Positions 38,812-58,843 of a DNA stretch of 64,000 nt are shown here, in pieces; within the stretch, counting starts at the first letter, position 1; each line of letters begins with the position of its first letter. A program made the translations under genes and the position numbers. The notes beneath the pieces were generated by a model. It worked only from the letters and a program-made list of their open reading frames with translations, did no database searches and was not told the origin of the DNA. Source of the stretch: Ignavibacteria bacterium (lineage in GTDB: Bacteria; Bacteroidota; Ignavibacteria; Kapaibacteriales; UBA4661); NCBI GenBank assembly GCA_013298775.1, contig JAAFIV010000018.1:8419-72418 (forward strand), in the 5' to 3' direction.

Positions 38812-39618
38812 CTAGATTTCATCAGGATTGATGCCGAGTGCACGGAGTTTTTCTGCAAGTGATTCCGAGCGTACATTGCTGGCTTCTAATTGATGAAGAG
38901 TTTTTGTTAATTCCGTTTTCGTTTCGTTCAGTTCTGTTTTTGTTTCTTTTAGTTCCGTTTTTGTTTCTTTCAGTTCCGTTTTTGTCCCCGTCAATTCAAT
39001 GCGCGTTGTATCAAGAATATGCTCCAGTTGGGTGTATTCCTCAAAGCTCAGAAATGGCTCGCCATGCGGTTTGTAGAGTTGCAGCTCACCTGATGACATA
39101 TCGAACCGAATACCTAAGCGTGGACTGTTCCAGTCATTCATATCAGGGATTTCCTCCAAAACATCATCGGCTTCTTGAAAGCGTATAAAGCCGCTTAAAA
39201 CCTTGCGTTCAATATCATAAATGTAGTATTCTTGTACCCCATAATGGTCGAAAAATGTTGCTTTCCGAATCATCTCCGACTGTGTGTTAGATTTGGATAA
39301 AAATTCAAACACCACCTGCGGTGCTATGCCGTCTTCTTCCCATTGTTTGTACGAACTACGCTCATGTTTTGGACGACCAAAGGCAATCATAATATCTGGT
39401 GCTTGCGTAAGATGTGGTTTTCCTTCGACGGGGTACCACAATAAATCTGCTGCGACAAAAACGTCATCACGGTCTTGAAAGAGAGTCTCCAAGCCGTATT
39501 GCGTCGTGGTGATGCGTTTGAAATGCTCCGTATTATTTGCCATTGGCTGCCCATCAGAATCAGGGTAAAAAATTTCTGTTGAAGTGTCGTTGAAGGCTGA
39601 TGTAATCGTGCTGTTCAT
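38812..39618 (-). CDS. Uma2 family endonuclease with heptad coiled-coil tail
   Basis: The protein has 268 residues from ATG 39618, which follows a TTCCTTTCCAAGAAA-like leader shared with the next gene. The nuclease core has DLLWYPVEGKP, APDIMIAFG with the first acidic residue, VVFEFLSKSN with the second, and YGVQEYYIYD. After residue 200 a heptad-repeat tail of ELKETKT units (about five) forms a coiled coil, ending in the conserved LRALGINPDEI. It is the paralogue of the gene at 39673 (over 70 percent alike by eye) and of the shortened copy at 20407. The substrate is unknown. Confidence 0.9.
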   Translation of the reverse strand: MNSTITSAFNDTSTEIFYPDSDGQPMANNTEHFKRITTTQYGLETLFQDRDDVFVAADLLWYPVEGKPHLTQAPDIMIAFGRPKHERSSYKQWEEDGIAPQVVFEFLSKSNTQSEMIRKATFFDHYGVQEYYIYDIERKVLSGFIRFQEADDVLEEIPDMNDWNSPRLGIRFDMSSGELQLYKPHGEPFLSFEEYTQLEHILDTTRIELTGTKTELKETKTELKETKTELNETKTELTKTLHQLEASNVRSESLAEKLRALGINPDEI

Positions 39619-39672
39619 AGTGTTCCTTTCCAAGAAAAAATTCAGTTCAAATACCGTATTCAAACTGGGGTT

Positions 39673-40416
39673 TTATAGTTCATCAGGATTGATGCCGAGT
39701 GCGCGGAGTTTTTCGGCAAGTTTTTCGGCATAACTTTTCGTTGTGTCAAGTTCAGCGCGGGTTTCGCCAAGTTCAGCGCGGGTTTCACCAAGTTCAGCGC
39801 GGGTTTCACCGAGAGTGTTCTCAATGCGGATATATTCGTCGTATGTCAAAAACGGCGTTCCATCGGGCTTCCACAGGACTAATTCGCCAGAGGACATATC
39901 AAACCGAATGCCCAAGCGTGGACTTTTCCAATCGCTCATGTCGGGAATTTCTTCCAATACATCATCTTCTTCTTGAAAGCGAATTAAGCCGCTTAATACT
40001 TTGCATTCAATGTCATAAATGTAGTATTCTTGTACGCCGTAATGCTCAAAAAACGTTGCCTTGCGAATCATTTCTGTTGGTGTATTTGATTTTGATAAAA
40101 ATTCAAATACTACCTGCGGTGCCGTATTATGTTCTTCCCATTGTTTGTACGAGCTACGTTCATGTTTTGGACGACCAAAGGCAACCATCACATCAGGTGC
40201 TTGGACAAGAGTTGGTTTTCCAAGAACAGGATACCATAATAAATCTGCTGCAATAAATACATCGTCACGGTCTGCAAAGATAGATTCTAAGCCATATTGC
40301 GTTGATGCGATACGCTTGAAGTGTTCGGTATTATTTGCCATTGGCTGCCCGTCGGAATCAGGGTAAATAATATTTGTTGATGTGTCGTGAAGCGGAGATG
40401 CAATCGTGCTGTCCAT
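39673..40416 (-). CDS. Uma2 family endonuclease with heptad coiled-coil tail, tandem paralogue
   Basis: The protein has 247 residues from ATG 40416. The core is nearly the same as in the gene at 38812: DLLWYPVLGKP, APDVMVAFG, VVFEFLSKSN, YGVQEYYIYD. The tail has three identical heptads, GETRAEL, encoded by a 21-bp tandem repeat, then a C-terminal LRALGINPDEL. The tandem pair differ chiefly in the tail length and sequence, which suggests repeat expansion and contraction rather than change in the nuclease part. The two start regions are also alike, so the duplication includes the leader. Confidence 0.9.
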   Translation of the reverse strand: MDSTIASPLHDTSTNIIYPDSDGQPMANNTEHFKRIASTQYGLESIFADRDDVFIAADLLWYPVLGKPTLVQAPDVMVAFGRPKHERSSYKQWEEHNTAPQVVFEFLSKSNTPTEMIRKATFFEHYGVQEYYIYDIECKVLSGLIRFQEEDDVLEEIPDMSDWKSPRLGIRFDMSSGELVLWKPDGTPFLTYDEYIRIENTLGETRAELGETRAELGETRAELDTTKSYAEKLAEKLRALGINPDEL

Positions 40417-40465
40417 AGTGTTCCTTTCCAAGAAAGTTTTGCTTGAATTCAATGTGAATATCACC

Positions 40466-41635
40466 TTACAAGGTCGCAACTGCTGCCGCTTCTACTGCCG
40501 CCGTTGCTTGTACCATGCCGTGTCCTTGCGGTTCTGATGGGTAGCTGGGAAGGGGACGTGCTGTTTCGGTGAGGATTTCCTTGATTTTTGCAGGCGTAAG
40601 GCGGTCGTTTGCTTCCAGCATTTGTGCGATAACTGAGCAAACAATCGGTGCGGCAAACGACGTACCGTCCACATGTTTGTAGTTTGGCGAAATAATTTTT
40701 TCACCTTGCAAACGCTCGTTAATTTTCGTGCGGATTTCATCCACATTCCCTGAACGCAAGAGTTCAAGGGGCAAGCCGGTTTTTGGTAACAGCAAAGGAA
40801 GCGTTGTCATCAGCATATCGTCGAGCATATTGTCGAGAGCGGAGAGGGCGGAGGCTTCGGTGTGAGTAGGCGTTCCGGGTAGGATTGGTGCGGGGAGCCA
40901 GATTGCGGGGGCGATAACTTCTGGTTTTGTCAAGCCTTCAATGGTGCGTCCGAAGCTAGAGTGATACAATCCATCGTCTTCGAGCAGATTATTTTTATCA
41001 TCCAAACCACCAACCGTAATCGCGGAAGGCGCACAGGCAGGCGGGTACAGAGGAACGCGAGGATTATTGCCCGATGCTGCTACAACCACGATTCCCCGCC
41101 GCGAAGCCTCTTCTACGAGCTTCGTAACAGGATGTTCAAGCGATGTGTCCATTTCATCGGCATAGACAGACATATTGATAATATTGATACCATATTTTTT
41201 CGCATTTTGCAAACACCATTCCAACGCCTCTGCAATGCGCTTTGTGGGAATAGAGCCTTTCTCGTCCATTGTGCGCACAAGTACGACGTTTGCATTATAG
41301 GCAAGCGAGGAGTAGAGTTTGCGCGAGAGAAAGCCGTTTCCAGCCGCCGTACAAGCGGTCATTGTGCCGTGCCACGAATAGACTTCTGGCTTCGTTGGTG
41401 GTAATGCTGCTTCTTCTTTTTTGACGGCATCGTAGTAGCGAAGAATACGATTTTCGGGCTTCGTGAGGTCTGGATGCGGCACGAAACCTGAATCAATCAT
41501 TGCAATACAAACGCCTTTTCCCGAAAAGTGAGATTCCGAGCGCATTCTCGTTGGGATAGAAAGTGCGGGGAAGAGCGATGGAACGTAGATGTGTTGTGCT
41601 TTTGTCACGTGTGATACCGATTCTAATGTTTGCAT
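40466..41635 (-). CDS. S8 family serine peptidase (subtilase)
   Basis: The protein has 389 residues with the full catalytic triad: Asp48 in AMIDSGFVPHPD, His89 in YSWHGTMTACTAAGN and Ser326 in VDGTSFAAPIVC, plus the oxyanion Asn in VVVAASGNNP. No signal peptide and no propeptide are seen, so it may act in the cytosol or be released by another route. An insertion of about 70 residues (LDNMLDDMLMTTLP) lies between the Asn and Ser motifs. It is on the same strand as the Uma2 pair, 50 bases upstream of them, and diverges from cheA. Confidence 0.92.
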   Translation of the reverse strand: MQTLESVSHVTKAQHIYVPSLFPALSIPTRMRSESHFSGKGVCIAMIDSGFVPHPDLTKPENRILRYYDAVKKEEAALPPTKPEVYSWHGTMTACTAAGNGFLSRKLYSSLAYNANVVLVRTMDEKGSIPTKRIAEALEWCLQNAKKYGINIINMSVYADEMDTSLEHPVTKLVEEASRRGIVVVAASGNNPRVPLYPPACAPSAITVGGLDDKNNLLEDDGLYHSSFGRTIEGLTKPEVIAPAIWLPAPILPGTPTHTEASALSALDNMLDDMLMTTLPLLLPKTGLPLELLRSGNVDEIRTKINERLQGEKIISPNYKHVDGTSFAAPIVCSVIAQMLEANDRLTPAKIKEILTETARPLPSYPSEPQGHGMVQATAAVEAAAVATL

Positions 41636-41926: not shown

Positions 41927-44431
41927 ATGGATCGTGAAACGCTTGAGATAGTACGTGCCTTTGTCGCTGAGTCGCTGGACTCTCTTGATGAGCAGGAAGG
42001 TCGAATTCAAGATATTGCCGATGGCTCGAATCAAGAAAGTATTCATTCCATTTTTCGTGTTTTTCACACGATTAAGGGTTTGTCGGGCTTTCTCAATTTT
42101 AATACCATCAATACCGTTACGCATGAATCCGAGACGATGCTTGATATTGTGCGGAATATGACGGGTATTCCTAATGAGGAAATCATTGGCACAATTTACG
42201 AGGCTTTCGATGTTATTCGCACCTTGCTTAATACGGTGAGTGATTCGCTGAAAGATACTGGGCATGAAGCATCCGTAAAAAATTTGATTGGACGGTTGCA
42301 ACAATCTATTGCAATGCTGAAAGCTGGCGGCGGCAGACTTGAAGCTGGTTCTACACCTTCTTCTTCGCAAACTACGACTTCTGAACAAGCACATTCTTCA
42401 CGCCAAGAATCTATTCAAGAAATTTTTGTTCCTACGGATGAGCCTTTATTTGTTCACCCCGCAGAGGGCGCAGAACTTGGGCAATCAGTATTTTCCGATA
42501 CGGATTTCTTTTTCAATGACGACCAATTAGCGCAATTACAAAACGAGGAAAAACAAGCCGTGTCGTCGCAGGCTTCAAACGATGATTTTCCCGATAGAGC
42601 TGGACTTGCGGCTGCTACGGGAGAAATGCTTTCGCGGTATGTTGCCGAAGCACTCGACCTTATCTCGCGTGTAGAAGATGGGTGCTTGGTTTTAGAGCAA
42701 GACCCGCATAATATGGGCATTGTGGGCGATATTTTTGGTGCTGTGCATAGTATCAAGGGAAACTCAGGTTTCATGGGCTTTGCAGAGATTGAAGATATGA
42801 GCATGGATTTGGAAAATATTCTTGATGCAGTTCGTTCCAAAACCATAGAAGTTTATCCGGGCTTGATTTCGATGATTTTAACAAACATTGATATTATCAA
42901 AACTGCTGTTCAAGCTCTGATGACGGGCGCACCAAGCGTCAGCACTGCTCCGCCAGAAGAAAAGCCGCCTCAGGTAAGTTCTGCACAAAAAGCGCATCAA
43001 GCGGCACCGCAAACCTTCCAAGCACAGCCTTCTAACGGTGCTGCGCATAATGAAGCACCCAAAATTCAATCAGAAGAAGTTTCTTTGCCTCCCGTAGAAC
43101 GAGTAGTACCGCACAGCGTAGCACAGGCATCCGTTGCACAAGCCTCTACGCACCAAGCGTCTGCACCACAAGTATCTGCACCACAAGCTAGTCCTCAAGC
43201 TAGTCCACAAGCTAGTCCTCAAGCGGCTGGGCTTGCGCAGCGCAAGGATATTCGCGTTGATACGGAAAAATTAGATAAACTGTTTGATTTAGTTGGTGAG
43301 CTGATAACTATTGAAACGATGGTAACAAGCAATCCCGAAGTTGTCGCGCTTGAATTGCAGAGTTTTTCGCGGGCTGCTGGGATGTTGAATAAAATTACCC
43401 GCGAATTACAAGAAGTAACGATGTCTATTCGCATGACACCAGTTGAGGGCTTGTTTAACAAGATGAAACGCCTTGTCCGCGATGTATCTATGCGGTTCGA
43501 TAAGAAAATTACCTTGCTCATTTCTGGCGCGGAAACGGAAATGGATAAAAATGTTATTGAAGAGATTTCCGACCCGCTCATGCACATTTTGCGAAATGCG
43601 ATTGACCATGGCGTAGAAAGCCGTGAACGCCGCATTGCAGCAGGAAAAAGCGAGACGGGAATTGTGAAGTTACAAGCGCGGTATGAAGGAAATGAAATTT
43701 TAATTGTCGTTGAAGATGATGGTGGTGGTTTGAATCGGCATAAAATCTTGGAAAAAGCAATTTCAAAAGGAATTTTGAAAACTTCACCCGATAAAGTAAC
43801 CGACCGCGAAGTCTTTCAAATAATTTTTGAGCCAGGCTTCTCAACGGCTGATAAAATCTCAGATATTTCTGGTCGCGGCGTGGGAATGGATGTGGTGAAG
43901 CGCAATATTGAAAAATTACAAGGAAGTATCACGGTTGATAGCAAAGAAGGCTTGGGAACTCGCTTCACGCTTCGTATTCCGCTCACCTTAGCGATTATGG
44001 AAGGGATGCTTATTCGTGTTGGCGAGGCGGTCTATGCTTTGCCGATACTGTCTATTCGCGAATCGTTTCGCCCGCACCAAGATGCAATTACCGTTACGAT
44101 GGACGGACAAGAAGTGGTGCGCGTCCGCGAGGATTTATTCTCGGTGATTCGTTTGCATGAACTGTATGAAATCATTCCCCAAACACGAAACTTAGAAGAA
44201 GGGATTTTAGTTGTGGTAGAATCTCGCGAACGTCGTGCATGCTTGTTTGTTGATGAAATTATTGGTCAGCAGCAAATTGTTGTCAAAGGGCTTTCCGATT
44301 ATGTAGGAAGCGTCAAAGGAGTAACTGGCTGTATGATACTCAGCAATGGCGAAATTGGCTTGATTACTGATGTGGATGCAGTTCTTTCCTTGCATGAGGG
44401 TTCGCTGGAGCCATTGGAAATGTTGGCGTAA
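41927..44431 (+). CDS. cheA: CheA chemotaxis histidine kinase with two Hpt domains
   Basis: The protein has 834 residues. It has two P1/Hpt domains: His47 in VFHTIKGLSGF and His274 in AVHSIKGNSGFMGF, separated by a Ser/Gln-rich linker. A second low-complexity linker has a QASP repeat. The dimerisation domain P3 (VDTEKLDKLFDLVGELITIETMV), the ATPase P4 (MHILRNAIDHGVESRERR, VVEDDGGGLNRHKI, DISGRGVGMDVVKRNIEKLQG) and a C-terminal CheW-like P5 (MLIRVGEAVYALPILSIRESFRP) follow. A dual-Hpt CheA can serve two outputs or integrate two inputs. It heads the signalling cluster; a sigma-70-like promoter and a small leader frame lie upstream. Confidence 0.96.
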   Translation: MDRETLEIVRAFVAESLDSLDEQEGRIQDIADGSNQESIHSIFRVFHTIKGLSGFLNFNTINTVTHESETMLDIVRNMTGIPNEEIIGTIYEAFDVIRTLLNTVSDSLKDTGHEASVKNLIGRLQQSIAMLKAGGGRLEAGSTPSSSQTTTSEQAHSSRQESIQEIFVPTDEPLFVHPAEGAELGQSVFSDTDFFFNDDQLAQLQNEEKQAVSSQASNDDFPDRAGLAAATGEMLSRYVAEALDLISRVEDGCLVLEQDPHNMGIVGDIFGAVHSIKGNSGFMGFAEIEDMSMDLENILDAVRSKTIEVYPGLISMILTNIDIIKTAVQALMTGAPSVSTAPPEEKPPQVSSAQKAHQAAPQTFQAQPSNGAAHNEAPKIQSEEVSLPPVERVVPHSVAQASVAQASTHQASAPQVSAPQASPQASPQASPQAAGLAQRKDIRVDTEKLDKLFDLVGELITIETMVTSNPEVVALELQSFSRAAGMLNKITRELQEVTMSIRMTPVEGLFNKMKRLVRDVSMRFDKKITLLISGAETEMDKNVIEEISDPLMHILRNAIDHGVESRERRIAAGKSETGIVKLQARYEGNEILIVVEDDGGGLNRHKILEKAISKGILKTSPDKVTDREVFQIIFEPGFSTADKISDISGRGVGMDVVKRNIEKLQGSITVDSKEGLGTRFTLRIPLTLAIMEGMLIRVGEAVYALPILSIRESFRPHQDAITVTMDGQEVVRVREDLFSVIRLHELYEIIPQTRNLEEGILVVVESRERRACLFVDEIIGQQQIVVKGLSDYVGSVKGVTGCMILSNGEIGLITDVDAVLSLHEGSLEPLEMLA
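43184..43219 (+). repeat. 12-bp tandem repeat in the CheA linker
   Basis: Three 12-base units (43184-43195, 43196-43207, 43208-43219), differing at the last base, encode Gln-Ala-Ser-Pro. A partial fourth unit follows. It lies in the linker before P3. Confidence 0.85.
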
Positions 44432-44946: not shown

Positions 44947-47115
44947 ATGGCTATGACTAACTGGTGGCTTTCTTTGCCAATTCGATGGAAACTTATTCTG
45001 CCGATAGTTGTAATTTCCGTCGCAAGTGGACTTGTTTCGTATTGGTATTTTTCAAATATTTACCGACAAGCAGCAACAGACGCTCTTGTCAATAAGGCAC
45101 GAACACTTGTGTACGCTGCTGAATCTGCTCGTGAATATGCTGCTGACCAAATGAAGCAAGGTGTGTTCAAAGATATTCGCTCATCGAACTTTTCTACGCA
45201 GCAAATTTTGCACACTATTCCTATTTTTTCTGCAATGGAAGTGGCGCGAAAAAAAGCACGAGAATTAGGCTTTTCAATAAAAGTACCTAAAATTCAACCA
45301 CGAAACCCAGATAATGAGCCAACTCCAACCGAGCTTGCTGTTTTAAAGAAACTCGAAGATGGCACTCTTACGGAATATCAGGAAATGGACGTTGCGAATA
45401 ACCAATTGCATTATTTCCGTCCGATAAAGCTATCGCAAGAATGTATGCAATGCCACGGCGACCCAGCAGAATCTATGGCTCTGTGGGGAAATTCCGAAGG
45501 TAAAGACATCACTGGTACAAAGATGGAGAATTGGAAGATTGGCGAGGTGCATGGAGCTTTTGAAGTAACTATGAATTTGAATGAAGTTCAAGCCGCAACA
45601 ACAGAAAAATCCTTGTTTATCGCAATGATTGTGGGGTTATCTTCTGCGGTGATGATTGTGGCGATATTTTTTATTGCTGGTTTCCTTGTAAAACCCGTGA
45701 ATATCCTCAAGGATGTGAATGGAAAAGTTGTTGCTGGTGATTTGAAAAATATCTCTTTTTCCATTTCAAACCGTGATGAAATGGGAGAATTAGCAATAAT
45801 GAAAAAGAAAATTGTTCAAACAATTCAAGAACTTGCTGAGGAAACCAACGGACTTACCAAAGCTGCGACAAATGGAGACTTGAAAACGCGTGGAAATGAA
45901 AAGCACTTTCACGGTGCATACCGAGAAATTATTGCTGGAGTAAATTCTACCTTAGATGCCACTATTCATCCCATTCAAGAAGCAGTTTCGGTGCTGAAAT
46001 ATATGGCAGATGGTGATTTGCGCCATTCAATGCAAGGTGAATACAAAGGCGACCATGCAGCATTGAAGTCAAATATCAACTCGACGATTGGCGCAATTGC
46101 TGATGTTCTTCAAAATGTTATTGAGATTGTTGAGCAAGTTACGCGTGGCTCTGCTCAAGTAGCCGATGCAAGTACGTCCTTGTCTCACGGTGCATCGCAG
46201 CAGGCAGCAGCATTGGAAGAGATTTCGAGTTCTATGCACGAGCTTGCCTCTCAAACCCGCATCAATGCTGAAAATGCAAATCAAGCAAACATTGTGGCTT
46301 TAGATGCAAACAGTATTGCGCAACGTGGAAATGCTGAAATGGAGCAGCTTGGCAGTGCCATGTCCGCTATCAATGAATCAAGCAAAAACATTTCAAAAAT
46401 TATCAAGGTGATTGATGAGATTGCTTTTCAAACAAATCTCCTTGCGCTGAATGCGGCGGTAGAAGCCGCACGCGCTGGCAGACACGGAAAAGGATTTGCT
46501 GTCGTCGCCGAAGAAGTACGCAGTTTGGCAGCACGGAGCGCAAAAGCGGCGAAAGAAACGGCAGATTTAATCGAGTCTGCGGTGGAAACTGCTGGTAAGG
46601 GAACGCAAATTGCGGCGCGTACTGCCCAAGCTCTTGAAGAAATCATGCTTGCAAGCGTGAAAGTACGCGATATTGTTGGTGAAATTGCTTCTGCCTCAAA
46701 TGAACAAGCGCAAGGAATTTCACAAGTAAATCTCGGATTGGCGCAAATAGACCGCGTAACGCAGCAAAACACGGCTGCTGCCGAAGAGTGCGCTTCTGCG
46801 GCTGAGGAATTATCAAAACAAGCAGTTGAGTTAAATCGTGTTGTCAGCTCTCGTTTTCAATTGGGTCAGAATACTGGTTTTATTGTTGATGCAGTAGCAA
46901 ATGCGCGACCTTCACGTTCACAAAAGGAATCGTTTTCGCCAATCACCACCTTGAATAGGCAAGCAAAGAAAGAGAAAATGATGCACAATGAAAGCACCGT
47001 TTCTTTTTCAGATTCTCGTTCCGATGATGAGCCTCGCAAGATACCGTCGCCGCAAAAAATGCTTGCGGCACACGACCAAATCCGTTTGGATGATAGCGAA
47101 TTTGGTCGGTATTAA
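44947..47115 (+). CDS. Methyl-accepting chemotaxis protein with a haem-binding DUF3365-type sensor
   Basis: The protein has 722 residues from ATG 44947, preceded by GGAGAA. A membrane helix (about 12-32) precedes a periplasmic domain with the haem c motif Cys166-Met-Gln-Cys-His170 in [10 protein letters not shown], as in Tll0287-like/DUF3365 sensors. A second helix (about 221-244, [20 protein letters not shown]) and a HAMP region follow, then further HAMP-like segments and the MCP signalling domain with [46 protein letters not shown]-terminal tail carries ESTVSF rather than a clear CheR-docking pentapeptide. A haem sensor suggests detection of redox state, oxygen or NO. It needs c-type cytochrome maturation in the periplasm. 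Confidence 0.92.
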
Positions 47116-47134: not shown

Positions 47135-47992
47135 ATGCAAGTTCCAGCACTCGAAGATATAGTTTCTATTCAGCTTTCGGTTGATGAATTTGACAGCTTG
47201 AGCCGTCTTGTTTACGACCGATTTGGTATCTTTTTACCTCCCGAAAAACGCACGATGGTAACGGTGCGTTTACAAAAAGTGCTGCGAAAAATGGGAATGA
47301 AAACATTCCACGAGTATTACGAGTACCTCACGCGTGCTGGAGGCAATTCTGAGGCATTGATTGAATTCGCAAATCATATCACGACAAATCATACATTTTT
47401 TTGGCGTGAAAAAGACCACTTTGAGTTTTTTCTCCAGCAATTCTTACCCAATGTAACAGCGACGCTGAGTGCGAAACGCGAGTTTGATGTGCGTATTTGG
47501 TGTGCTGGTTGCTCATCGGGCGAGGAATCGTATATGTTGCAAATGCTTCTCATGGATTATTTCGGGGGAGAGTATTCTAAGTGGAAAGCCGGTGTTTTGG
47601 CAACGGATATTTCCGAACGTGCGCTCGGTATTGCTGAGGCGGGTGTGTATCCAAAAGAGCGCATTGAATTATTGCCCGACACCTATAAACGCAAATACAC
47701 AAAACAGCTTCCGAGCGGGGAAGTCCAGATTTTACCGCAGGTGCAGAAGGATGTTGTGTATCGGAAGTTTAATCTTATGAATGCGCAATTTCCTTTCAAA
47801 CGACCGTTTCACGCCATCTTCTGCCGAAACGTGATGATTTATTTTGATAAACCAACCCGCGATGCACTTGTAGAACGCTTTTACAACTCCCTTGAGTCGG
47901 GTGGATATTTATTTATCGGGCATTCCGAGACTATTTCGCGTGATTTGTCGTCATTTCGTTATATTAGCCCCGCGTTATATCAAAAACCATAA
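47135..47992 (+). CDS. cheR: CheR chemoreceptor methyltransferase
   Basis: The protein has 285 residues. The N-terminal helical domain (FDSLSRLVYDRFGIFLPPEKRTMVTVRLQKVL) is followed by the SAM-binding domain with CAGCSSGEESYML (Cys123 onwards), VLATDISERALGIAEAGVYPKERI, DVVYRKFNLM and IFCRNVMIYFDKPTRDALVERFYNSLESGGYLFIGHSETI. It methylates receptor glutamates. It starts 19 bases after the haem chemoreceptor stop, so the two are co-transcribed. No TPR domain is attached, unlike some type III CheR proteins. Confidence 0.95.
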   Translation: MQVPALEDIVSIQLSVDEFDSLSRLVYDRFGIFLPPEKRTMVTVRLQKVLRKMGMKTFHEYYEYLTRAGGNSEALIEFANHITTNHTFFWREKDHFEFFLQQFLPNVTATLSAKREFDVRIWCAGCSSGEESYMLQMLLMDYFGGEYSKWKAGVLATDISERALGIAEAGVYPKERIELLPDTYKRKYTKQLPSGEVQILPQVQKDVVYRKFNLMNAQFPFKRPFHAIFCRNVMIYFDKPTRDALVERFYNSLESGGYLFIGHSETISRDLSSFRYISPALYQKP

Positions 47993-48061: not shown

Positions 48062-49198
48062 ATGAGCAAAAAAATTCGTGTTCTTATTGTTGATGATTCC
48101 GCGCTCGTGCGGGATATTCTCTCACAAGGGTTGGGAGCCGACCCGAATATTGAAGTTGTTGGGGTAGCCCCCGACCCCTTTGTTGCGCGTGATAAAATTG
48201 TGGAATTGCGCCCAGATGTTCTTACGCTGGATGTGGAAATGCCTCGTATGGATGGTGTTGAGTTTTTACGCCGTTTGATGCCGCAATTTCCTATTCCTGT
48301 GGTGATGGTGAGTTCACTAACCCAACGCGGGAAAGAAATCACCATGCAAGCACTGGAGGCAGGTGCAGTAGATTTTGTTGCAAAGCCTACATCCAACGTT
48401 GCACAAGGCTTGCAGGGAATGATGATGGAATTGCGCACAAAAGTCAAAATTGCATCAACGGCGAATGTTTCTCATTGGAAATCAAAACGAGAAGAGCTGT
48501 TTTCGGCGGTGCGCTCGGGAGCAGGTACGGCAGCAGGAGCAAGTGGCAGTGCCGCTTCTACGCCTTCTGCTGGAGTTGGTTCTTCTCCCGCCGCACCAGC
48601 ATTCAAAGCAAAAGCATTGGCAGAATCTACGGATAAAGTCATTGCAATCGGTGCAAGTACGGGCGGTACAGAGGCAATTCGCCGTTTAGTGCGTGAATTC
48701 CCAGCAACAACGCCTGGTGTGGTTATTGTTCAGCACATGCCACAAGGATTTACCAAAACTTTTGCCGATAGATTGAATGAAGAATGTGCAATGGAAGTCA
48801 AAGAAGCTGCCAATGGAGACCGCGTTGTTACTGGACGCATTCTGGTCGCGCCAGGCGATATGCACTTAAAAGTTGTGCGTTCTGGCGGGCGATATGAGGT
48901 TGTTTTGTCGCAAGAAGATAAAGTAAATGGTCATCGCCCTGCGGTGGACGTGATGATGAAATCTGTTGCAGAATACGTTGGCGCAAATGCGTGTGGCGTA
49001 ATTCTTACTGGTATGGGCAATGACGGTGCGCAAGGCTTGAAAGCAATGCGTGATGCGGGCGCAAAGACGATTGGACAGGATGAATCGTCTTCGGTCGTCT
49101 TCGGCATGCCCAAAGTAGCTCAAGAAGTGGGCGCGGTGCAAACCGTTTTGCCACTACCAAAAATTGGTGCTGCAATTTTGCAAGCAGTTGGCGTTTAG
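48062..49198 (+). CDS. cheB: CheB protein-glutamate methylesterase
   Basis: The protein has 378 residues. The receiver domain has the acidic pair Asp11-Asp12 and phosphorylated Asp57 in LTLDVEMPRMDG, then VSSLTQ and KP near 109. A Ser/Ala-rich linker leads to the methylesterase domain with the catalytic Ser in GASTGGTEAIRRL, His in VIVQHMPQGFT and Asp in GMGNDGAQGL. It removes methyl groups (and deamidates) receptors when phosphorylated by CheA. The receiver resembles that of the following REC-CheD gene closely (DDS-LVRD, DVEMP/DMEMP, LEAGAVDF), so one receiver was probably copied to the other. Confidence 0.96.
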   Translation: MSKKIRVLIVDDSALVRDILSQGLGADPNIEVVGVAPDPFVARDKIVELRPDVLTLDVEMPRMDGVEFLRRLMPQFPIPVVMVSSLTQRGKEITMQALEAGAVDFVAKPTSNVAQGLQGMMMELRTKVKIASTANVSHWKSKREELFSAVRSGAGTAAGASGSAASTPSAGVGSSPAAPAFKAKALAESTDKVIAIGASTGGTEAIRRLVREFPATTPGVVIVQHMPQGFTKTFADRLNEECAMEVKEAANGDRVVTGRILVAPGDMHLKVVRSGGRYEVVLSQEDKVNGHRPAVDVMMKSVAEYVGANACGVILTGMGNDGAQGLKAMRDAGAKTIGQDESSSVVFGMPKVAQEVGAVQTVLPLPKIGAAILQAVGV

Positions 49199-49250: not shown

Positions 49251-50408
49251 ATGGCTGAAAAAATACGTGTTTTATTGGTGGATGATTCGCCGCTTGTGCG
49301 GGATTTACTAACGAAATCCCTGAGTGCGCCAGAGCATGAACTGGAAATTGTTGGTGCGGCTATAAACGGTCAAGATGCCCTCGATAAGCTCCAATCGCTT
49401 GCTGTGGATGTGGTGGTAACGGATATGGAAATGCCCGTGATGAACGGGTTGGACTTTATCAAAGCAGCAATGGCTCGCGAATCTGTTCCCATCGTTGTTT
49501 TAAGTTCTTGGGCGCAAAACGATAAAAGTATTACTTTGCAAGCTCTCGAAGCAGGTGCGGTTGATTTTATTCCCAAGCCCTCAGCAATGAGTCCGCAAGG
49601 CTTTCAAGATACACTTGCTCGTTTGGTCGTGAAAATACGGGCTGCGTACCGCATTAGCGGTGGAGAAGCCCGACCAACGCGGCAAAAAAGTAGTCTTGGT
49701 GCCGCTCAGGGGAATTCCATTCCTAAAATGGAACTACCCGCAAAACCAACGTTGCCTTTTCCAAACCAAGTACCATCGCAAGCAGAATCAGCGTTTAGTT
49801 CTCAGCAAGGACGACCTGTTACGGCACCAAGCATTGCACCAAATATTGCACCAAGCAATGTATCAAGTTCTTTGTCAAATTCGCTGCCGACGAGTAGTCT
49901 CAATTATGAGGAACGTATTCCGCAGCTTATTTTGGGTGTTGGTGAGTTTGGTGTGGCGCATGAATACGGGAAAATCGTAAAAACATTTGCTCTTGGTTCG
50001 TGTGTTGCGGTGTGTTTATTCACTCCAACGCAAGATATTGTGGGCATGGCGCACGTGGCATTGGCGAATTCAGAAACATCCAGAGAAAAAGCAAAAACGT
50101 TACCGGGCTACTTTGCCGATACCGCCATTCCAGCACTTATCAATGAAATGCGGGCAAAAGGCTATCGCAAGCCCATGTCTCAACTAACGGCAAAGCTCGC
50201 TGGCGGTGCGCAAACTGGTGCAGATGCAGGGAACTACTTCAAGATTGGTGAAAAAAATATTGCTGCAATTAAACAGCTTCTTCAAGCTCTTGGGATTTCC
50301 ATTGCCTCTGAAGATACTGGGCAAACCTTTAGTCGCACGGTGTTTATTCAAGTAGGCTCAAAAGCTGTTCACGTCTCTTCTCCAGAAAAGAAGCCTTGGA
50401 TTTTGTAG
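49251..50408 (+). CDS. REC-CheD fusion: receiver domain joined to a chemoreceptor glutamine deamidase
   Basis: The protein has 385 residues. Residues 1-130 are a CheB-type receiver (Asp11-Asp12, phosphorylated Asp58 in VVVTDMEMPVMNG, LEAGAVDFIPKP). A Pro/Ser/Asn-rich linker (about 140-220) follows. Residues about 225-385 are a CheD domain: Thr245 and Cys251 in KTFALGSCVAV, His268 in GMAHVALA, then AKLAGGAQT, IGEKNIAAI and EDTGQTFSRTV. The Thr-Cys-His spacing (6 and 17) equals that of the Thermotoga CheD triad (Thr21, Cys27, His44). This puts receptor deamidation under direct phosphorylation control. The usual DTGG is DTGQ here. It sits between cheB and cheY. Confidence 0.9.
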   Translation: MAEKIRVLLVDDSPLVRDLLTKSLSAPEHELEIVGAAINGQDALDKLQSLAVDVVVTDMEMPVMNGLDFIKAAMARESVPIVVLSSWAQNDKSITLQALEAGAVDFIPKPSAMSPQGFQDTLARLVVKIRAAYRISGGEARPTRQKSSLGAAQGNSIPKMELPAKPTLPFPNQVPSQAESAFSSQQGRPVTAPSIAPNIAPSNVSSSLSNSLPTSSLNYEERIPQLILGVGEFGVAHEYGKIVKTFALGSCVAVCLFTPTQDIVGMAHVALANSETSREKAKTLPGYFADTAIPALINEMRAKGYRKPMSQLTAKLAGGAQTGADAGNYFKIGEKNIAAIKQLLQALGISIASEDTGQTFSRTVFIQVGSKAVHVSSPEKKPWIL

Positions 50409-50744: not shown

Positions 50745-51116
50745 ATGGCGTTTAAAACAGCTTTAGTTGTCGATGATACCGAGATTCATCGCTCTGCAAC
50801 GCGCACCTTTCTTGCAATGTCAGGCTTTAAGGTTGATTTAGCTGAAGATGGCATTCAAGGCTTAAAAGTGCTGGATTCCAAAACGTTTGATGTTATTTTT
50901 TCAGATATTGAAATGCCAAACATGAATGGAATGGAGTTCCTCAAACGAGTACGCAAGCACGCAACGGCTGGAAAAACGCCAGTTGTCATGCTTTCAACGT
51001 TGGATAGTCCCGAAATGCAAGCAAAACTCCAGCAGCTTGGTGCGAACCATTATTTAGTAAAACCCTTTTCCGGCGACCGCATGAAAACTGCATTGAAAGC
51101 GGTTGGGTTGTTGTGA
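50745..51116 (+). CDS. cheY: CheY-like single-domain response regulator
   Basis: The protein has 123 residues with a complete receiver: acidic pair in LVVDDTEIHRS, phosphorylated Asp in VIFSDIEMPNMNGMEFLKRVR, Ser in VVMLSTLD and Lys in YLVKPFSGDRM. There is no output domain. It is probably the direct target of CheA and carries the signal to a motor, pilus or gliding machine, or to another kinase, as no motor gene is seen. A palindromic element lies between it and the REC-CheD gene. Confidence 0.9.
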   Translation: MAFKTALVVDDTEIHRSATRTFLAMSGFKVDLAEDGIQGLKVLDSKTFDVIFSDIEMPNMNGMEFLKRVRKHATAGKTPVVMLSTLDSPEMQAKLQQLGANHYLVKPFSGDRMKTALKAVGLL

Positions 51117-51499: not shown

Positions 51500-52789
51500 A
51501 TGACGCACGAACAAGAATCCCAACTTAGCGATTTAATTGACCTCGTTGAACGCTTGGAGCAGCTTCTCCTTAATTTTGAGGAAATGCTCGACACGCAGGG
51601 CGACAAAACCGAGAGTGTGCATCAAATCTTTCGGATTGCCCACAATCTGAAAAGCACACTTGGGTTGGCTCAACGCGATGCTTCCTCGCAGCTTATCCAT
51701 GCGGTGGAGTCTAATTTTGACTTGGTACGCAATGGCTTTGCTGAACCAACGCAAATGCTCGTTCATAAGTCGCTTATGGCGGTTGATGCTATCCGTTTCA
51801 ATATCTTTCTCCCTGCCGAGCATCATGCAGAATTAGCGGTACTTCAGAAGGAATTGGAGCATATCCATGAAGAGGCACAACGCAATACCAGTGGGAATTC
51901 TTCAGGAGGTAAAAACTTTATTGAATTGCAATTCCCATTAACTGAGCGGCAACGCGGTTTACTGGGGGGAATGGTGCAAGAAAAATTCAATATTTACCAG
52001 ATTGAAAAAGTCATCAACCCATCACTTCTTTCTCAAAATACCTATGAGAATTTGCCCATCTATGATGATATTCGTGAGGTGGGAATTCACATCGCTACAT
52101 ACCCAGAGTACGAGAATTTACCTCGCTCTGAAGCTGAATCGGTGATGCGCATTGTGCTTGCCACGACGTTTGAATTGGATGAACTGGAAATGCACATCTT
52201 CGACCCCGTAAAGCCCGTGGATGTTGAGAAAGTAATGCAAAAACCGAGCGGCAGCCAGCAACCAAGCACCGCAAACGTCAATGTGCAGAAAAATGAGAGC
52301 AGTATCGTGAAAGCGGGTATGCAGCCAGCGAATTCCATGAGTGCAGCAGGAAGTATTCCTCAACAAAAAGATGTCCGCGCCGTTAAGAAAATGAATATCC
52401 TCATTGCGGAAGATGATTTTGTTAGCCGCACCGTCATTCACGAGATTTTATCGCCCTTTGGCGTATGCGACCTCGCCGCCGATGGACGTGAGGCACTGAT
52501 GGCGTTCGAGCAAACGCTGAACGATGGTGGCTCATACGACCTTATTTGTTTGGATATTATGATGCCGATGATGGACGGAACACAAGCATTGAAGGGCATT
52601 CGAGAGCTGGAAGATAAAAAACGCCTTCCTCTCCAGCAACGGTCAAAAATTGTGATGACCACTGCGCTGGATAGCATGGACCAAGTCTTCAAGGCTTTTC
52701 GCTTGCAATGCGATGCGTATATTACCAAGCCCATTTCGCGAGCAAAAGTTTTGAATCAACTTCGTAAATTGCATTTGCTCGAAGAGTAG
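51500..52789 (+). CDS. Hpt-middle domain-REC phosphorelay protein
   Basis: The protein has 429 residues. The N-terminus is an Hpt domain with His48 in RIAHNLKSTLGLA and a four-helix pattern. The middle (about 135-235: NFIELQFPLTERQRGLLGGMV, REVGIHIATYPEYENLPRSEAESVMRIVLATTFELDELEMHIF) is reminiscent of a CheA P2-type adaptor, but that assignment is uncertain. The C-terminal receiver has an acidic pair (IAEDDFVSR), Asp352 in LICLDIMMPMMDG and Lys in YITKPISRAKV. It lacks a kinase core, so it can only relay phosphate. Its receiver is alike to the stand-alone receiver at 55752 (FVSR, EIL-P-G, VMTTAL, KAF-QC-AY--KPI). Confidence 0.85.
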   Translation: MTHEQESQLSDLIDLVERLEQLLLNFEEMLDTQGDKTESVHQIFRIAHNLKSTLGLAQRDASSQLIHAVESNFDLVRNGFAEPTQMLVHKSLMAVDAIRFNIFLPAEHHAELAVLQKELEHIHEEAQRNTSGNSSGGKNFIELQFPLTERQRGLLGGMVQEKFNIYQIEKVINPSLLSQNTYENLPIYDDIREVGIHIATYPEYENLPRSEAESVMRIVLATTFELDELEMHIFDPVKPVDVEKVMQKPSGSQQPSTANVNVQKNESSIVKAGMQPANSMSAAGSIPQQKDVRAVKKMNILIAEDDFVSRTVIHEILSPFGVCDLAADGREALMAFEQTLNDGGSYDLICLDIMMPMMDGTQALKGIRELEDKKRLPLQQRSKIVMTTALDSMDQVFKAFRLQCDAYITKPISRAKVLNQLRKLHLLEE

Positions 52790-53138: not shown

Positions 53139-55637
53139 ATGAGCCAAGCAGCCCAGCAAATACCAGCATTGGAAAAATTACCCGTTGTCATTCTTTACGT
53201 AGAAGACGACCCCGCAATTCGCTTACTAACCAAGATGTTGCTTGAGAAGCGTGTTGAAAAAGTTGTTTTGGCGCAAGATGGTCAAGAGGGACTTGCAATG
53301 TTTGAAAAACATCAGCCCGACGTGGTTGTCGCCGATGTTGCCATGCCGATTATGGATGGTATGGAGATGTCGCGCCGTATTCGCATGCAAAATAGCCGCA
53401 TTCCAATAATTCTTACCACCGCATACGACCGCACAGATTTCCTTCTGAACGCTATTGAAATTGGCATTGACCAATACATCATTAAGCCCGTAAAGCAAGA
53501 GAAACTCTACGTTGCGATTGAACGTGCCGTCAATACCTTGCTTGTTGAAAAGCAGCTTGCAGAGCAGCGAAAAGTTGTGCAAGAAACAAAAGAGCAATTA
53601 GAAGCGGTGTTGAATTCTGTTCCAGGTACAATTTCGTGGATTGGTAAGGATTTGAAATATCTTGGGGTGAATAATCACATCGAAAGCGTAACCGGCTTGC
53701 CAGCAAGTGAATATCCCGGCAAAGAGGTCGGTTTTATCGGGCAGCCACAAACATTGAGATTTAAGGAACTCATCCGCCAATTCTTTGAAAGCTCTAGTGA
53801 TATAACAGAATTTGAAATTGAAATCAATACTCCAGTGGGCTTGAAAACCTACTTTGTCATTGGGAGAAAGTACCACAATGGAGAAGCGGCGGTCTTTGCC
53901 AGCATTGATATTACTGAGCGCAAAGAAGCTGAAAAGGCAATGCAAAGCATCAATGAAGAATTAGAGCGGCGTGTCGCAGAGCGTACCATTGAGATTGTTC
54001 GTGCAAAAGAAGTAGCTGAGGCTGCTAACGAGGCTAAAAGTACCTTTTTGGCGAACATGAGCCACGAGCTACGCACTCCTTTGAATGGTATTATTGGTAT
54101 GAGTAGTTTGCTCACAAGCGGAGAAAATTTAACAACGAAACAGCATGAGTATCTACGAATGGTACGGGTTTCGGCGGATTCGCTCCTGTACATCATCAAT
54201 GATATTTTGGATATTTCCAAAATCGAAGCACAGAAATTGGAGTTTGAAAACATTCCTATTGATGTGAAAACGCTCATCGTGGATGTTTGTGAGATTTTCC
54301 GCGCTCAGGCACAAAGTAAGGGTTTGGAATTGCAAGTACATGTTGATGAATCTATTCCCGCACGCATGATTGGCGATGCTATTCGTTACAAGCAAATTTT
54401 GAATAATTTTATTGCAAACGCAATGAAATTTACCGACAGAGGTATCGTGAAAGTTTCGGCAACACTCGTGGAAACACAAGAAAATTACGCCCTTGTCGAG
54501 TGTGTGGTTAAGGATTCTGGTATTGGAATTGCACAAGACAAGATGGATAAGCTCTTCAAGAGTTTTAGTCAAATAGACCCTTCTTTTACTCGTAAATATG
54601 GTGGAACAGGCTTAGGACTTGCCATCGCAAAACAGCTCGCAGAGATGATGGGTGGCGGAGTTTGGTGTAAAAGTGAAGAAGGTTTGGGTTCTACCTTTGG
54701 CTTTACTGTTCGATTGCCAATTGCTAATCAACAAGATGAGTCGCAAAGCGCGACGTTTGTGCGTACTTCCACGGGCAGTGCGCCCAAAGCAACATCCACC
54801 GGAAGGCAGCTTCGGGTCTTGGTTGCAGAAGACAGCCCTATCAATCAAGCTGTACTTCGCGAAACATTGGGCATTAACAATTGGGAACTGCACATTGTTG
54901 GAAATGGGCAGGAGGCATTGGATGAATTAGAACGACAAAATTTTGATTTTGATATTATTCTGATGGATGTGCAAATGCCCGAAATGGACGGTTTGACGGC
55001 GACCGCAGCCATTCGAGCGCACGAAAAAATTACGAGAAGGCACGTACCAATTATCGGCATTACCGCTCACGCAACCGCTCAAGATGCCGAGATGTGCCGC
55101 CGCGCAGGTATGGATGATGTTGTTACGAAACCCTTAGATTTTGGCAAGCTCTACGATGCAATCTGGCGATTACTTCAATCAAAAAATGCCACATCGGATG
55201 CTGCTGCGCCACAATCAACCAATGCTGCCGAGAGCAAGGAATCCTCTTCGTTCAATGAAGAGCCAGCACTGCCAATGTGGACAGGTACGCCACCTGCCGA
55301 TATTTCACGCCTTTTGCAAGCAGTGAATGGTAAAAAAGATGTTGTTGAAAAACTCATTACATACTTCTTACAAAATTATCCTACGGACGTAACAGCGATT
55401 GAACATGCTGTAAATGAAAACAAAGCTGCGGAGCTGCATTCCTGCGCTCATAAGCTAAAATCAGCCGTTGGCAATTTTGGTGCAGAACGTTGTTTGGATT
55501 TATGCGCTCAGTTGGAGAAAATTGGTAAAAATGGTATGTTGCATGAAGCACCATCGTTATTTACGATGCTCAAAGAAGAAATTGCTCATTTGGATTCTTT
55601 CTTTCGCTCTGGCGCGTGGAAGCAGTTTATTTCGTAA
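53139..55637 (+). CDS. Hybrid histidine kinase: REC-PAS-HisKA-HATPase-REC-Hpt
   Basis: The protein has 832 residues and no membrane helix. Domain order: receiver 1 (Asp66 in [13 protein letters not shown]), a linking helix, PAS (about 148-270, ending [11 protein letters not shown]), a coiled coil, HisKA with His309 in [11 protein letters not shown], HATPase ([38 protein letters not shown]), receiver 2 (Asp610 in [12 protein letters not shown]) and Hpt with His771 in [12 protein letters not shown]. An N-terminal receiver lets another kinase, possibly CheA, control it, and the Hpt can pass phosphate to the receiver gene at 55752 or to the Hpt-REC protein. Confidence 0.95.
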
Positions 55638-55751: not shown

Positions 55752-56147
55752 ATGAAAATGCTTGTAATGGAAGATGAGTTTGTAAGCCGTAGCGTCATGA
55801 CGGAAATTCTTGCGCCATACGGTGAAGTAGTTGCAGCTGAAAATGGTCGCGAGGCTTTGGAAAAATTTCAAACCGCGTTACAAAGCCCAAATAAGTTTGA
55901 TGTGGTCTTCTTGGATATTATGGTGCCAGAGATGACGGGGCAAGATGTCTTAAAAAACATCCGCGAAATGGAGCAGCAACATGGCGTTTTTGCACTCGCT
56001 GGCGCGAAAGTAGTCATGACAACAGCTCTCGGCGATTTTGCCAACGTAAAGGCTGCCTTTAAGCACCAATGCGAAGCCTATTTGATAAAGCCCATTGACC
56101 GCGAAAAAGTGATTAGTACCTTGCAAGGTTTGGGCATGATTTCGTAA
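55752..56147 (+). CDS. Stand-alone response regulator receiver
   Basis: The protein has 131 residues: acidic pair in LVMEDEFVSRS (Glu7-Asp8), phosphorylated Asp in VVFLDIMVPEMTG, Thr in VVMTTALGD and Lys in YLIKPIDREKV. No output domain. It is closely related to the C-terminal receiver of the Hpt-REC protein, especially in EILAPYGEVVAAENGREAL, and is probably its copy or its partner in the relay. A tandem repeat lies just upstream. Confidence 0.92.
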   Translation: MKMLVMEDEFVSRSVMTEILAPYGEVVAAENGREALEKFQTALQSPNKFDVVFLDIMVPEMTGQDVLKNIREMEQQHGVFALAGAKVVMTTALGDFANVKAAFKHQCEAYLIKPIDREKVISTLQGLGMIS

Positions 56148-56260
56148 CATGGATGCTCGCTTGTTGTTGTAGAAATAATACGCGGCTACTGCTCGGTATG
56201 GCAACAACAATATCATTTTGAGCTGTTTTCTTTGTTTGAACATTGCAAAAAAAATCTGGT

Positions 56261-56297
56261 AAAAGCACACGGGACGCTTGTTCACCGTGTGCTTTTT
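56261..56297 (+). terminator. Rho-independent terminator after the signalling cluster
   Basis: AAAAGCACACGG (56261-56272) pairs with CCGTGTGCTTTT (56284-56295), perfect over 12 bases with a T-tract. It lies within the open upstream extension of the next gene and supports its start at 56387. Confidence 0.9.
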
Positions 56298-56386
56298 GCG
56301 TATTATTGGAATCCCATCACTGTAAGTGTCTTCATGTATTGATGTGTATTTGTAAGGGCAATTCCTTTCACTTTTTTTATTTCATT

Positions 56387-58843
56387 ATGAGTTCTTCTTT
56401 TCGTTATCGAGCGGCATATTTCCTTGTTTTGGTGATGTGTAGTGCTGCTGCACTCAGCGTTTGTGCGCAAAATTCTTCGCAGAATGCTTCTCGTTTGCCA
56501 TTCAAAGTTGGCTTGGAAGTATTGCAAGCGCAAGATTTCGCGCCATTTCGAGGCAAAAAAGTGGGGCTGATTGTCAATCACTCAGCTGTTACCCGAAATG
56601 GCGACCATGCGGTTGATATTTTTCACAAACAAGGCTTGGTAACAAAGCTCTTTGCACCGGAGCATGGCATTCGCGGCACAAAAGATGAGTTGTTGAACAA
56701 AAATGAAACCGATTCCGCAACAGGTTTGCCGATTTATTCCTTGTATCAGGAAAAGAAAAAAGAGCCTTCGCAAGAGGAATTGCAAGGCGTAGATGCCTTA
56801 GTATTTGATATTCAGGAAATAGGAGTACGATATTATACCTACGCAACGACGATGGCGTATTGCATGAAAGCTGCCGCACAAGCAGGAATACCGTTTTTCG
56901 TGCTTGACCGCCCAAATATGGCGGCTCCCCTCGGTGTGTACGGTCCGATTCTGGAAAAAGAGTTCCAAGGCGGATTTGCGAGCTATTACCCGATTCCGAT
57001 TGCGCACGGAATGACGATGGGCGAACTTGCTCAATTCTACAACACCGAGTTTGGTATCAATGCGAAACTCACCGTGATTCCGATGCAAGGCTATCAACCC
57101 GATAAATTTTACGACGAGCAAGAACCAGCCTTCCCTTGGCGCAATCCCAGCCCGAACATTCGCTCAATGGATGCCGTGATTGGCTATCATGTGCTGGGTT
57201 CGCTGGAAGATATTACGTGGAGCGTCGGACGCGGTACGGATTCGCCCTTCACGACGTATGGAGTGAGTATTCCAGGAATAAGTTTTATGAACGGTTTGCA
57301 ATGGGGACAACGCATTGATGCAAAAAAGCTGCCCGGACTAGAGTTTACCGCAATGGTGTTTAATCCCAGCAGTTCAAAATTAGCGGGGAAGCAATGTTAC
57401 GGTTTTGCTCTTAAAGTTGTCAATCGCCGAGCAATCAAACCCTTTCTCACGACATTGACCGTTGCGCGAGAACTGCACATGGTGTTACCTGATACTTCGC
57501 GCAGCAAAGAACTGGACAGAGCAGGGCGCAGCCTTGGTTCGCGTAAGGTTATTGCGATGATAAAAGCGGGAAAAACGCCTGAAGATATTGAGAAATCCTT
57601 GCAGACAGAGGTAAAAGAGTTTGAGAAAAAGCGTCTAAAATACTTGATATATACGAAAGAATTTTTGCAAAAACAGGCAGATGAAGCGAAGAAACGAGGC
57701 GCAGTAGAGAATTCAAGTGATAAAAATAACCTCCAAAATGCAGTCAATAATGGTGCAAATCAAGACCTAGATTTTGAAAGCACACGAAAGGTGATTTTGC
57801 GCTCAATCCATGATTCTGCCTTTCCTTCAGCGTGTCTAGGCGTGATTTGGAAAGGGAAAATCGTTACACAAGAGGCATTTGGGACAATGACATATTCATC
57901 AAACTCTCTCAAAACAACGACCGAATCTGTCTATGATATGGCTTCACTCACAAAGGTACTTGCCACAACGACGTGTTTTATGAAGTTGTACGACGAAGGG
58001 AAAATCAAGCTGGAGGATAGTGTAACGAAGTACATTCCAGAGTTTGCTGCGAATGGAAAACAGAATGTGAGGATTGCTAACCTTTTGCTACACAATTCTG
58101 GTCTCGCTGCATTTCGTCCCTACGACCAGCAAGTACAAGGCGCGGACGCAGCAATGCAAGCCCTGTACAATGAAAAGCTCGTGTACAAAACAGGCGATTC
58201 GATGATTTACAGCGATTTAGGTTTTATCACGCTGGGCGAGATTGTTCGGCGGATTACGGGAAAAACGTTGGATGCGTATTTTGCAGAAAATGTTGCACGT
58301 CCGCTTGGACTTGCTTCGATGGGCTTCAATCCCAAAGGCGAGATACTTTCGCGCTGCGTCCCTACTGAAGACGATAAACTCTGGAAGCAAGCATTTACGC
58401 GCCCTTTGGTGCATGACCCCCGTTCTGCCTTGCTTGGCGGTGTAGCTGGTCATGCGGGATTATTCGGCAGTGTGGGCGATGTTAGCCAACTTTTAAAAGC
58501 AATCTATTTCCCTGATAATTTCCCTGAAAGCGGCAAAGCACCGTTCATTCGCCCCGAAACGGTAAAACTTTTTACCACGAAACAAGGAAAACTTAGTACA
58601 CGAGCAATCGGTTGGGACACAAAAGGTGAAGGAAAAAGTTCGTGTGGAGAAGGCTTTGCTGCTGTTTCTTTTGGGCATACTGGATACACGGGAACAAGCG
58701 TGTGGTGCGACCCTACGAAAGAACTCTGCGTTGTTTTTCTTACCAATCGTGTGCATCCTACTTCGGAAAACATCAAGATTCGTGCGGTGCGTCCGGCGGT
58801 GCATGATGCTGTGTTGCGGGATATTGCAAATGCAGTAAAATAA
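56387..58843 (+). CDS. NamZ-type exo-beta-N-acetylmuramidase (DUF1343) fused to a serine beta-lactamase-like domain
   Basis: The protein has 818 residues from ATG 56387, with a signal peptide (AAYFLVLVMCSAAALSVCAQ). Residues about 35-420 match NamZ/DUF1343: GKKVGLIVNHSAVTRNGDHAVDIF, APEHGIRGTKDE, GLPIYSLYQEKKKP-like, DALVFDIQEIGVRYYTYATTM, FVLDRPNM, FPWRNPSPNIRSMDAVIGYHVLGSLEDITWSVGRGTDSPF. After a charged linker, a class C beta-lactamase/serine hydrolase domain has Ser520-x-x-Lys523 in MASLTKVLAT, YSD in MIYSDLGFITLG and FGHTGYTGT near the end. NamZ removes MurNAc from the end of peptidoglycan fragments. Fusion to the second domain suggests peptide trimming, but that part is inference. The acyltransferase gene follows 26 bases later. 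Confidence 0.88.
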   Translation: MSSSFRYRAAYFLVLVMCSAAALSVCAQNSSQNASRLPFKVGLEVLQAQDFAPFRGKKVGLIVNHSAVTRNGDHAVDIFHKQGLVTKLFAPEHGIRGTKDELLNKNETDSATGLPIYSLYQEKKKEPSQEELQGVDALVFDIQEIGVRYYTYATTMAYCMKAAAQAGIPFFVLDRPNMAAPLGVYGPILEKEFQGGFASYYPIPIAHGMTMGELAQFYNTEFGINAKLTVIPMQGYQPDKFYDEQEPAFPWRNPSPNIRSMDAVIGYHVLGSLEDITWSVGRGTDSPFTTYGVSIPGISFMNGLQWGQRIDAKKLPGLEFTAMVFNPSSSKLAGKQCYGFALKVVNRRAIKPFLTTLTVARELHMVLPDTSRSKELDRAGRSLGSRKVIAMIKAGKTPEDIEKSLQTEVKEFEKKRLKYLIYTKEFLQKQADEAKKRGAVENSSDKNNLQNAVNNGANQDLDFESTRKVILRSIHDSAFPSACLGVIWKGKIVTQEAFGTMTYSSNSLKTTTESVYDMASLTKVLATTTCFMKLYDEGKIKLEDSVTKYIPEFAANGKQNVRIANLLLHNSGLAAFRPYDQQVQGADAAMQALYNEKLVYKTGDSMIYSDLGFITLGEIVRRITGKTLDAYFAENVARPLGLASMGFNPKGEILSRCVPTEDDKLWKQAFTRPLVHDPRSALLGGVAGHAGLFGSVGDVSQLLKAIYFPDNFPESGKAPFIRPETVKLFTTKQGKLSTRAIGWDTKGEGKSSCGEGFAAVSFGHTGYTGTSVWCDPTKELCVVFLTNRVHPTSENIKIRAVRPAVHDAVLRDIANAVK

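Follow-up and report, generated by a model that had tools for sequence, protein, structure and literature searches.

A receiver-CheD fusion protein in the Kapaibacteria lineage, with possible control of CheD in cis

CheD is controlled in Bacillus and Thermotoga by a separate partner protein, CheC. Bacillus subtilis CheD binds the receptors and raises the activity of CheA, and CheC competes for CheD at high levels of CheY-P (PMC3513319). The same study reported that deamidation by this protein is of minor importance and its binding to CheC of major importance, and that residues M101/F102 at the CheC interface are conserved only in species with CheC (PMC3513319). The catalytic triad of Thermotoga maritima CheD consists of Thr21/Cys27/His44, with spacings of 6 and 17 residues (PMC7022378). 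Two questions are unsettled in the field, namely, what controls CheD where bacteria lack CheC and which of its two roles, catalysis or binding, is decisive. Here, we analyzed 64,000 nucleotides from an Ignavibacteria bacterium (the window), for which an initial inspection of the sequence, the original prediction, had proposed a phosphorylation-gated receptor deamidase.

Architecture of the REC-CheD protein

The gene spans positions 49251..50408 of the window (+ strand) and encodes 385 amino acids. The proposal that a CheB-type receiver containing Asp58 is joined through a linker to CheD in a single open reading frame was confirmed by Pfam, by the positions of the residues, and by the fold matches of an AlphaFold model. 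Pfam assigned residues 7 to 112 to Response_reg (E = 1.7e-23, far over the curated cut-off) and residues 271 to 376 to CheD (E = 3.1e-25; 88.9 bits versus a gathering score of 25), and D58, T245, C251, and H268 were found at the positions originally named. No Pfam CheB_methylest match was obtained within the frame. Among the NCBIfam models, the top-scoring ones were CheB for the receiver and Thermotoga-type CheD for the C-terminal part. The score of 108.7 bits was below the cut-off of 240 for the full-length CheD equivalog NF041119, which is a naming threshold built on stand-alone CheD proteins and not a defining trait.

The receiver comprises approximately residues 1 to 135 (49251..49655, +) and matches the folds of 3t8y, 6ymz, and 1a2o, with a Z score of 21.3 for the model against the T. 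maritima CheB receiver (3t8y_A). Its phosphorylation site is complete (D11/D12, D58, S85, and K109); in 19 REC-CheD sequences, D12, D58, S85, and K109 were invariant, and D11 was nearly so. In receivers, the T/S and Lys positions are the residues that transmit the signal. The protein thus shares with CheB the receiver type, the phosphorylation site, and an N-terminal receiver linked to a receptor-modifying enzyme, but the output domain is a CheD with the Cys deamidase fold instead of a methylesterase. The gene cheB is indeed the neighbor, located directly upstream (48062..49198, +; Pfam), and its receiver had been described as a near-copy, or twin, of that of REC-CheD. This was an overstatement, since the two receivers share 46% identity over 132 residues and those of REC-CheD are not nested with this CheB in the tree. 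A recent duplication of the neighboring cheB receiver is therefore ruled out, and the two domains are deep paralogues.

The CheD domain (residues 224 to 385; 49920..50405, +) aligned with T. maritima CheD (2f9z_C) over residues 226 to 368 in HMMER, without gaps between Cys and His. The spacing of T245, C251, and H268 is identical to that published for Thr21/Cys27/His44 (PMC7022378), in agreement with the original prediction. Superposition of this part of the model on 2f9z_C gave a Z score of 25.2 and an rmsd of 1.7 over 154 aligned residues. The T. maritima and B. subtilis proteins thus share with this domain the fold and the triad spacing, and they resemble it in an N-terminal motif (GxGE) and in the AGGA motif. 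Within the REC-CheD family, no variation is seen at C251 or H268, and T245 is kept in 8/8 copies of the family to which the window belongs (f1).

The two domains are separated by a Ser/Pro-rich linker that is predicted to be disordered (residues 142 to 221; 49674..49913, +). Its length varies from 33 to 96 amino acids among orthologues, so that any interdomain contact would be made without rigid spacing. In the AlphaFold model, for which the input alignment contained 19 family members, pLDDT was mostly >90 in both domains and <50 in the linker. The arrangement of the domains was not predicted with confidence (pTM 0.47, disordered linker), and we therefore claim no autoinhibitory interface.

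Distribution and origin of the fusion

CheD was detected in 25 of the 123 genomes of the order (Kapaibacteria lineage). The intact fusion is present in 23 genomes, 8 of family f1 and 15 of a sister family, f5. In a further f5-type case (L088), the contig end cuts the fusion, and the linker and an f5-type CheD are visible; the remaining genome (G670) has a separate short CheD as its only one. REC-CheD is thus real and conserved, and a chance origin is excluded by the 23 genomes with the intact fusion and by a model that matches both folds. Such a protein could in general result from faulty assembly or annotation of an adjacent CheY-like gene and cheD; here this is scarcely credible and is refuted by the orthologues, which show one continuous frame with an unbroken linker in 23 genomes of two families and CheD parts that form one clade at 100/99.

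An architecture search in samples of four other phyla revealed no REC-CheD outside the order. The whole phylum was sampled with 395 genomes, of which 33 had CheD, and all CheD frames of at least 300 amino acids fell in this order. CheD was present in 115/299 sampled genomes of Pseudomonadota and 76/297 of the Acidobacteria phylum, and among the matches listed, no frame of at least 300 amino acids contained a receiver in either sample. In the phylum of Eubacterium (311/398 sampled genomes with CheD), the longest frame among the matches listed had 261 amino acids. The Elusimicrobia sample (13/199 genomes with CheD) contained no REC-CheD and the reverse order, CheD-REC, in one genome; for plasmids, the best matches listed included only reverse-order or separate genes and no REC-CheD. 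The stand-alone CheDs of other Bacteroidota, Bacillota, Pseudomonadota, and Acidobacteria share the CheD domain with REC-CheD but were without a receiver in every match read. Instead of the many described examples that would have made the architecture familiar, none was found in the searchable literature. That search covered titles and abstracts, with subscription papers mostly outside its scope, and an earlier listing in a domain database is possible; within this scope, REC-CheD is apparently undescribed.

The closest architectures are the CheD-REC proteins of Elusimicrobia (L067) and of the Bdellovibrio plasmid pBdHAGR1 (L002), in which CheD and a CheB-like receiver are likewise joined in a single polypeptide. 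In these proteins the domain order is reversed, and their CheD belongs to a different CheD branch, which indicates a separate origin. The Bdellovibrio protein may be a CheD-CheB fusion that has lost most of the methylesterase. Two long CheD frames of Elusimicrobia (L075:686-1849 and L079:1468-2586) were considered as receiver fusions and rejected, as no receiver is present. Some 215 amino acids precede CheD in these frames and look CheC/CheX-like by eye, with a CheX match below the cut-off in one of them (E = 0.038); they are possibly CheC-CheD fusions, that is, another form of control of CheD in cis. In the Acidobacteria phylum, L264:1048-2403 and L265:977-2431 contain an HDOD domain and CheD in one frame.

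The CheD domains of all REC-CheD proteins, including the truncated L088 copy, form one clade (support 100/99), and a single fusion event in the order is therefore likely, as judged from this phylogeny. A one-clade test on CheD gave a p-AU of 0.08 but is uninformative, since the named set omitted the contig-truncated L088. The receivers grouped with those of the CheB type and were separated from CheY-like receivers (support 94/97). When CheY outgroups were included, the f1 receivers were placed outside a group of f5 receivers and CheB; when these CheY sequences and a CheB sequence, all on long branches, were removed, the REC-CheD receivers were separated from the rest by a single branch, weakly supported at 87/66. 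The receiver tree is thus compatible with one fusion, which it neither proves nor rejects.

Chemotaxis genes and receptors

REC-cheD is part of a cluster on the + strand with the order cheA, mcp, cheR, cheB, REC-cheD, receiver, Hpt-receiver, hybrid kinase, receiver, as annotated with Pfam. The presumed phosphodonor, CheA (41927..44431), has two Hpt domains and dimerization, ATPase, and CheW-like domains. It is followed by a chemoreceptor with a Tll0287-like sensor, HAMP, and MCP signal domain (44947..47115), by cheR (47135..47992), and by cheB, which encodes a receiver and a methylesterase. Downstream of REC-cheD are a CheY-like single-domain receiver (50745..51116) that is kept in most cluster copies, an Hpt-receiver protein (51500..52789; receiver over the Pfam cut-off, Hpt weak), a hybrid histidine kinase (53139..55637), and a second single-domain receiver (55752..56147), the last two assigned by Pfam and cluster comparison and the latter marking the end of the conserved cluster. 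This order is conserved in L032, L034, L168, and the available stretch of L033. In f5, an orthologous-looking cheA-cheR-cheB cluster was found without REC-cheD, which is located elsewhere in the genome; a small cheW-looking gene lies between cheA and cheR in both f5 loci read.

In two genomes (L035 and L036), the CheA kinase core, mcp, and cheB have been lost from the locus, and cheR and REC-cheD remain. The remnant of cheA (L035:5607-6986 and L036:5530-6978) corresponds to Hpt, and L035 also keeps the dimerization domain. This loss, together with the long, variable, and disordered linker, would fit a receiver that serves as a phosphate sink or as a docking module to CheA or the receptor arrays, attached to a CheD that deamidates constitutively and is not gated. 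However, CheA and CheB are encoded in another che cluster of both genomes, and the phosphorylation-site residues of REC-CheD are invariant, including the T/S and Lys positions, so that we consider this explanation rather unlikely.

The genome of the window also has a second che cluster (L202, contig C74), composed of cheW, a HEAT-repeat protein, cheR, two receivers, a CheZ-like protein (a weak match of 31.6 bits versus a cut-off of 30.7), cheA, and cheB. There are about 51 MCP matches in this genome, and REC-CheD is the only CheD found. MCPs and CheB were each present in 24/24 fusion genomes, as compared to 65/123 and 71/123 genomes of the order, respectively, although these counts come from related genomes and are hence not independent. 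At a recurrent site, loosely defined as a motif, some receptors of the genome have Gln (SAMQQMT, SAIQEMA, SAVEQIS) and others have EE. The strict co-occurrence and the Gln at some methylation-motif positions suggest that receptors are the targets of REC-CheD.

The chemoreceptor of the cluster ends in LDDSEFGRY. Orthologues and a second receptor of the genome keep this tail, with one E replaced by D (loci read: the window, L032, L034, L168, and L159); it might serve to tether CheR, CheB, or REC-CheD.

Control of CheD and the role of deamidation

CheC was not found in the genome of the window, as a search of the 95-contig assembly with one Pfam model (PF04509) gave no match at an E value of 0.001, and the control genomes were positive. 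Many CheDs of proteobacteria are accompanied by neither CheC nor a receiver, so the missing CheC alone demands no substitute. The site that corresponds to M101/F102 of B. subtilis CheD was also inspected. The Met-Phe pair is missing in 21/21 REC-CheD sequences read, which have Thr-Gly, Thr-Ser, Thr-Lys, and the like instead; the protein of the window has Thr322-Gly323 where CheDs of the T. maritima and B. subtilis type have the CheC-docking residues. The pair is kept in the CheD of Eubacterium, where a CheC-like frame adjoins (by eye), and in three CheDs of Elusimicrobia. The missing CheC and the lost docking residues together are the strongest evidence on the role of the receiver, and on their basis it may have replaced CheC in phosphorylation-dependent control.

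We thus consider it probable that REC-CheD is a CheD whose action on the receptors is controlled in cis by the CheB-type receiver, as opposed to control by CheC in trans in T. maritima and B. subtilis. CheA would phosphorylate Asp58, which would shift the seat of the receiver on or near the CheD domain; the shifted receiver would in turn alter binding of CheD to the receptors and hence the putative Cys-dependent deamidation of Gln at their methylation sites. As for the sign of control, phosphorylation could relieve inhibition, as in CheB, or lead to sequestration, as with CheC. One polypeptide would in this way resemble the action of CheC and CheY-P in trans in B. subtilis. Control of CheD by the output of CheA is known for the CheC-CheD-CheY-P system of T. 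maritima and B. subtilis, whereas for REC-CheD it is a proposal. It is plausible that CheA controls the receivers of both CheB and REC-CheD; if so, its feedback would reach deamidation as well as demethylation.

Points that count against control in cis are the variable linker length and the low confidence in the domain arrangement described above, together with the situation in f5, where REC-cheD is located outside the che cluster and the triad Thr is replaced by Ile. This replacement was observed in 15/15 intact f5 copies, all of which keep the Cys, the His, and the receiver Asp. Enzymes of this fold are most lenient about the third triad residue. A backbone carbonyl takes this role in CNF1, and in NTAN1 the S69A substitution slows the enzyme about 5-fold, whereas mutation of the Cys or the His abolishes activity (PMC7022378). 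Because of this leniency, f5 REC-CheD may be weakened rather than dead, with binding as the retained function.

In a refinement of control in cis that we hold only tentatively, the main output would be phosphorylation-controlled receptor binding that tunes CheA, with deamidation secondary and the f5 enzyme weakened or inactive. The uniform change to Ile in f5 next to a kept Cys, His, and Asp58 is consistent with this refinement, as are the minor deamidase and major CheC-binding roles of B. subtilis CheD (PMC3513319). On the other hand, neither Cys nor His varies in the family, the third triad residue is apparently the one most easily dispensed with, as illustrated by NTAN1 S69A (PMC7022378), and the triad is intact in f1. 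It is conceivable, at a similarly tentative level, that REC-CheD is a one-protein replacement of the CheC/CheD/CheY-P loop that arose once, and that erosion of the triad in f5 turned it into a phosphorylation-controlled, receptor-binding modulator of CheA with little or no deamidation.

The prediction of a phosphorylation-gated deamidase was thus upheld in one part: gating is the best reading, considering the invariant phosphorylation site, the che cluster, and the co-occurrence with MCPs and CheB, but deamidation may not be the whole function, given the loss of Thr in f5. A CheD with a receiver in cis, with an intact triad in one family and the Thr lost in its sister family, makes both questions posed above testable on single purified proteins.

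Two further features of the window lie outside the cluster. Positions 56243-58843 encode a protein in which a NamZ exo-muramidase is joined to a beta-lactamase-like domain (Pfam), possibly a wall-recycling enzyme, and positions 38815-40479 contain two tandem open reading frames with N termini that are near copies, the first of which matches Uma2.
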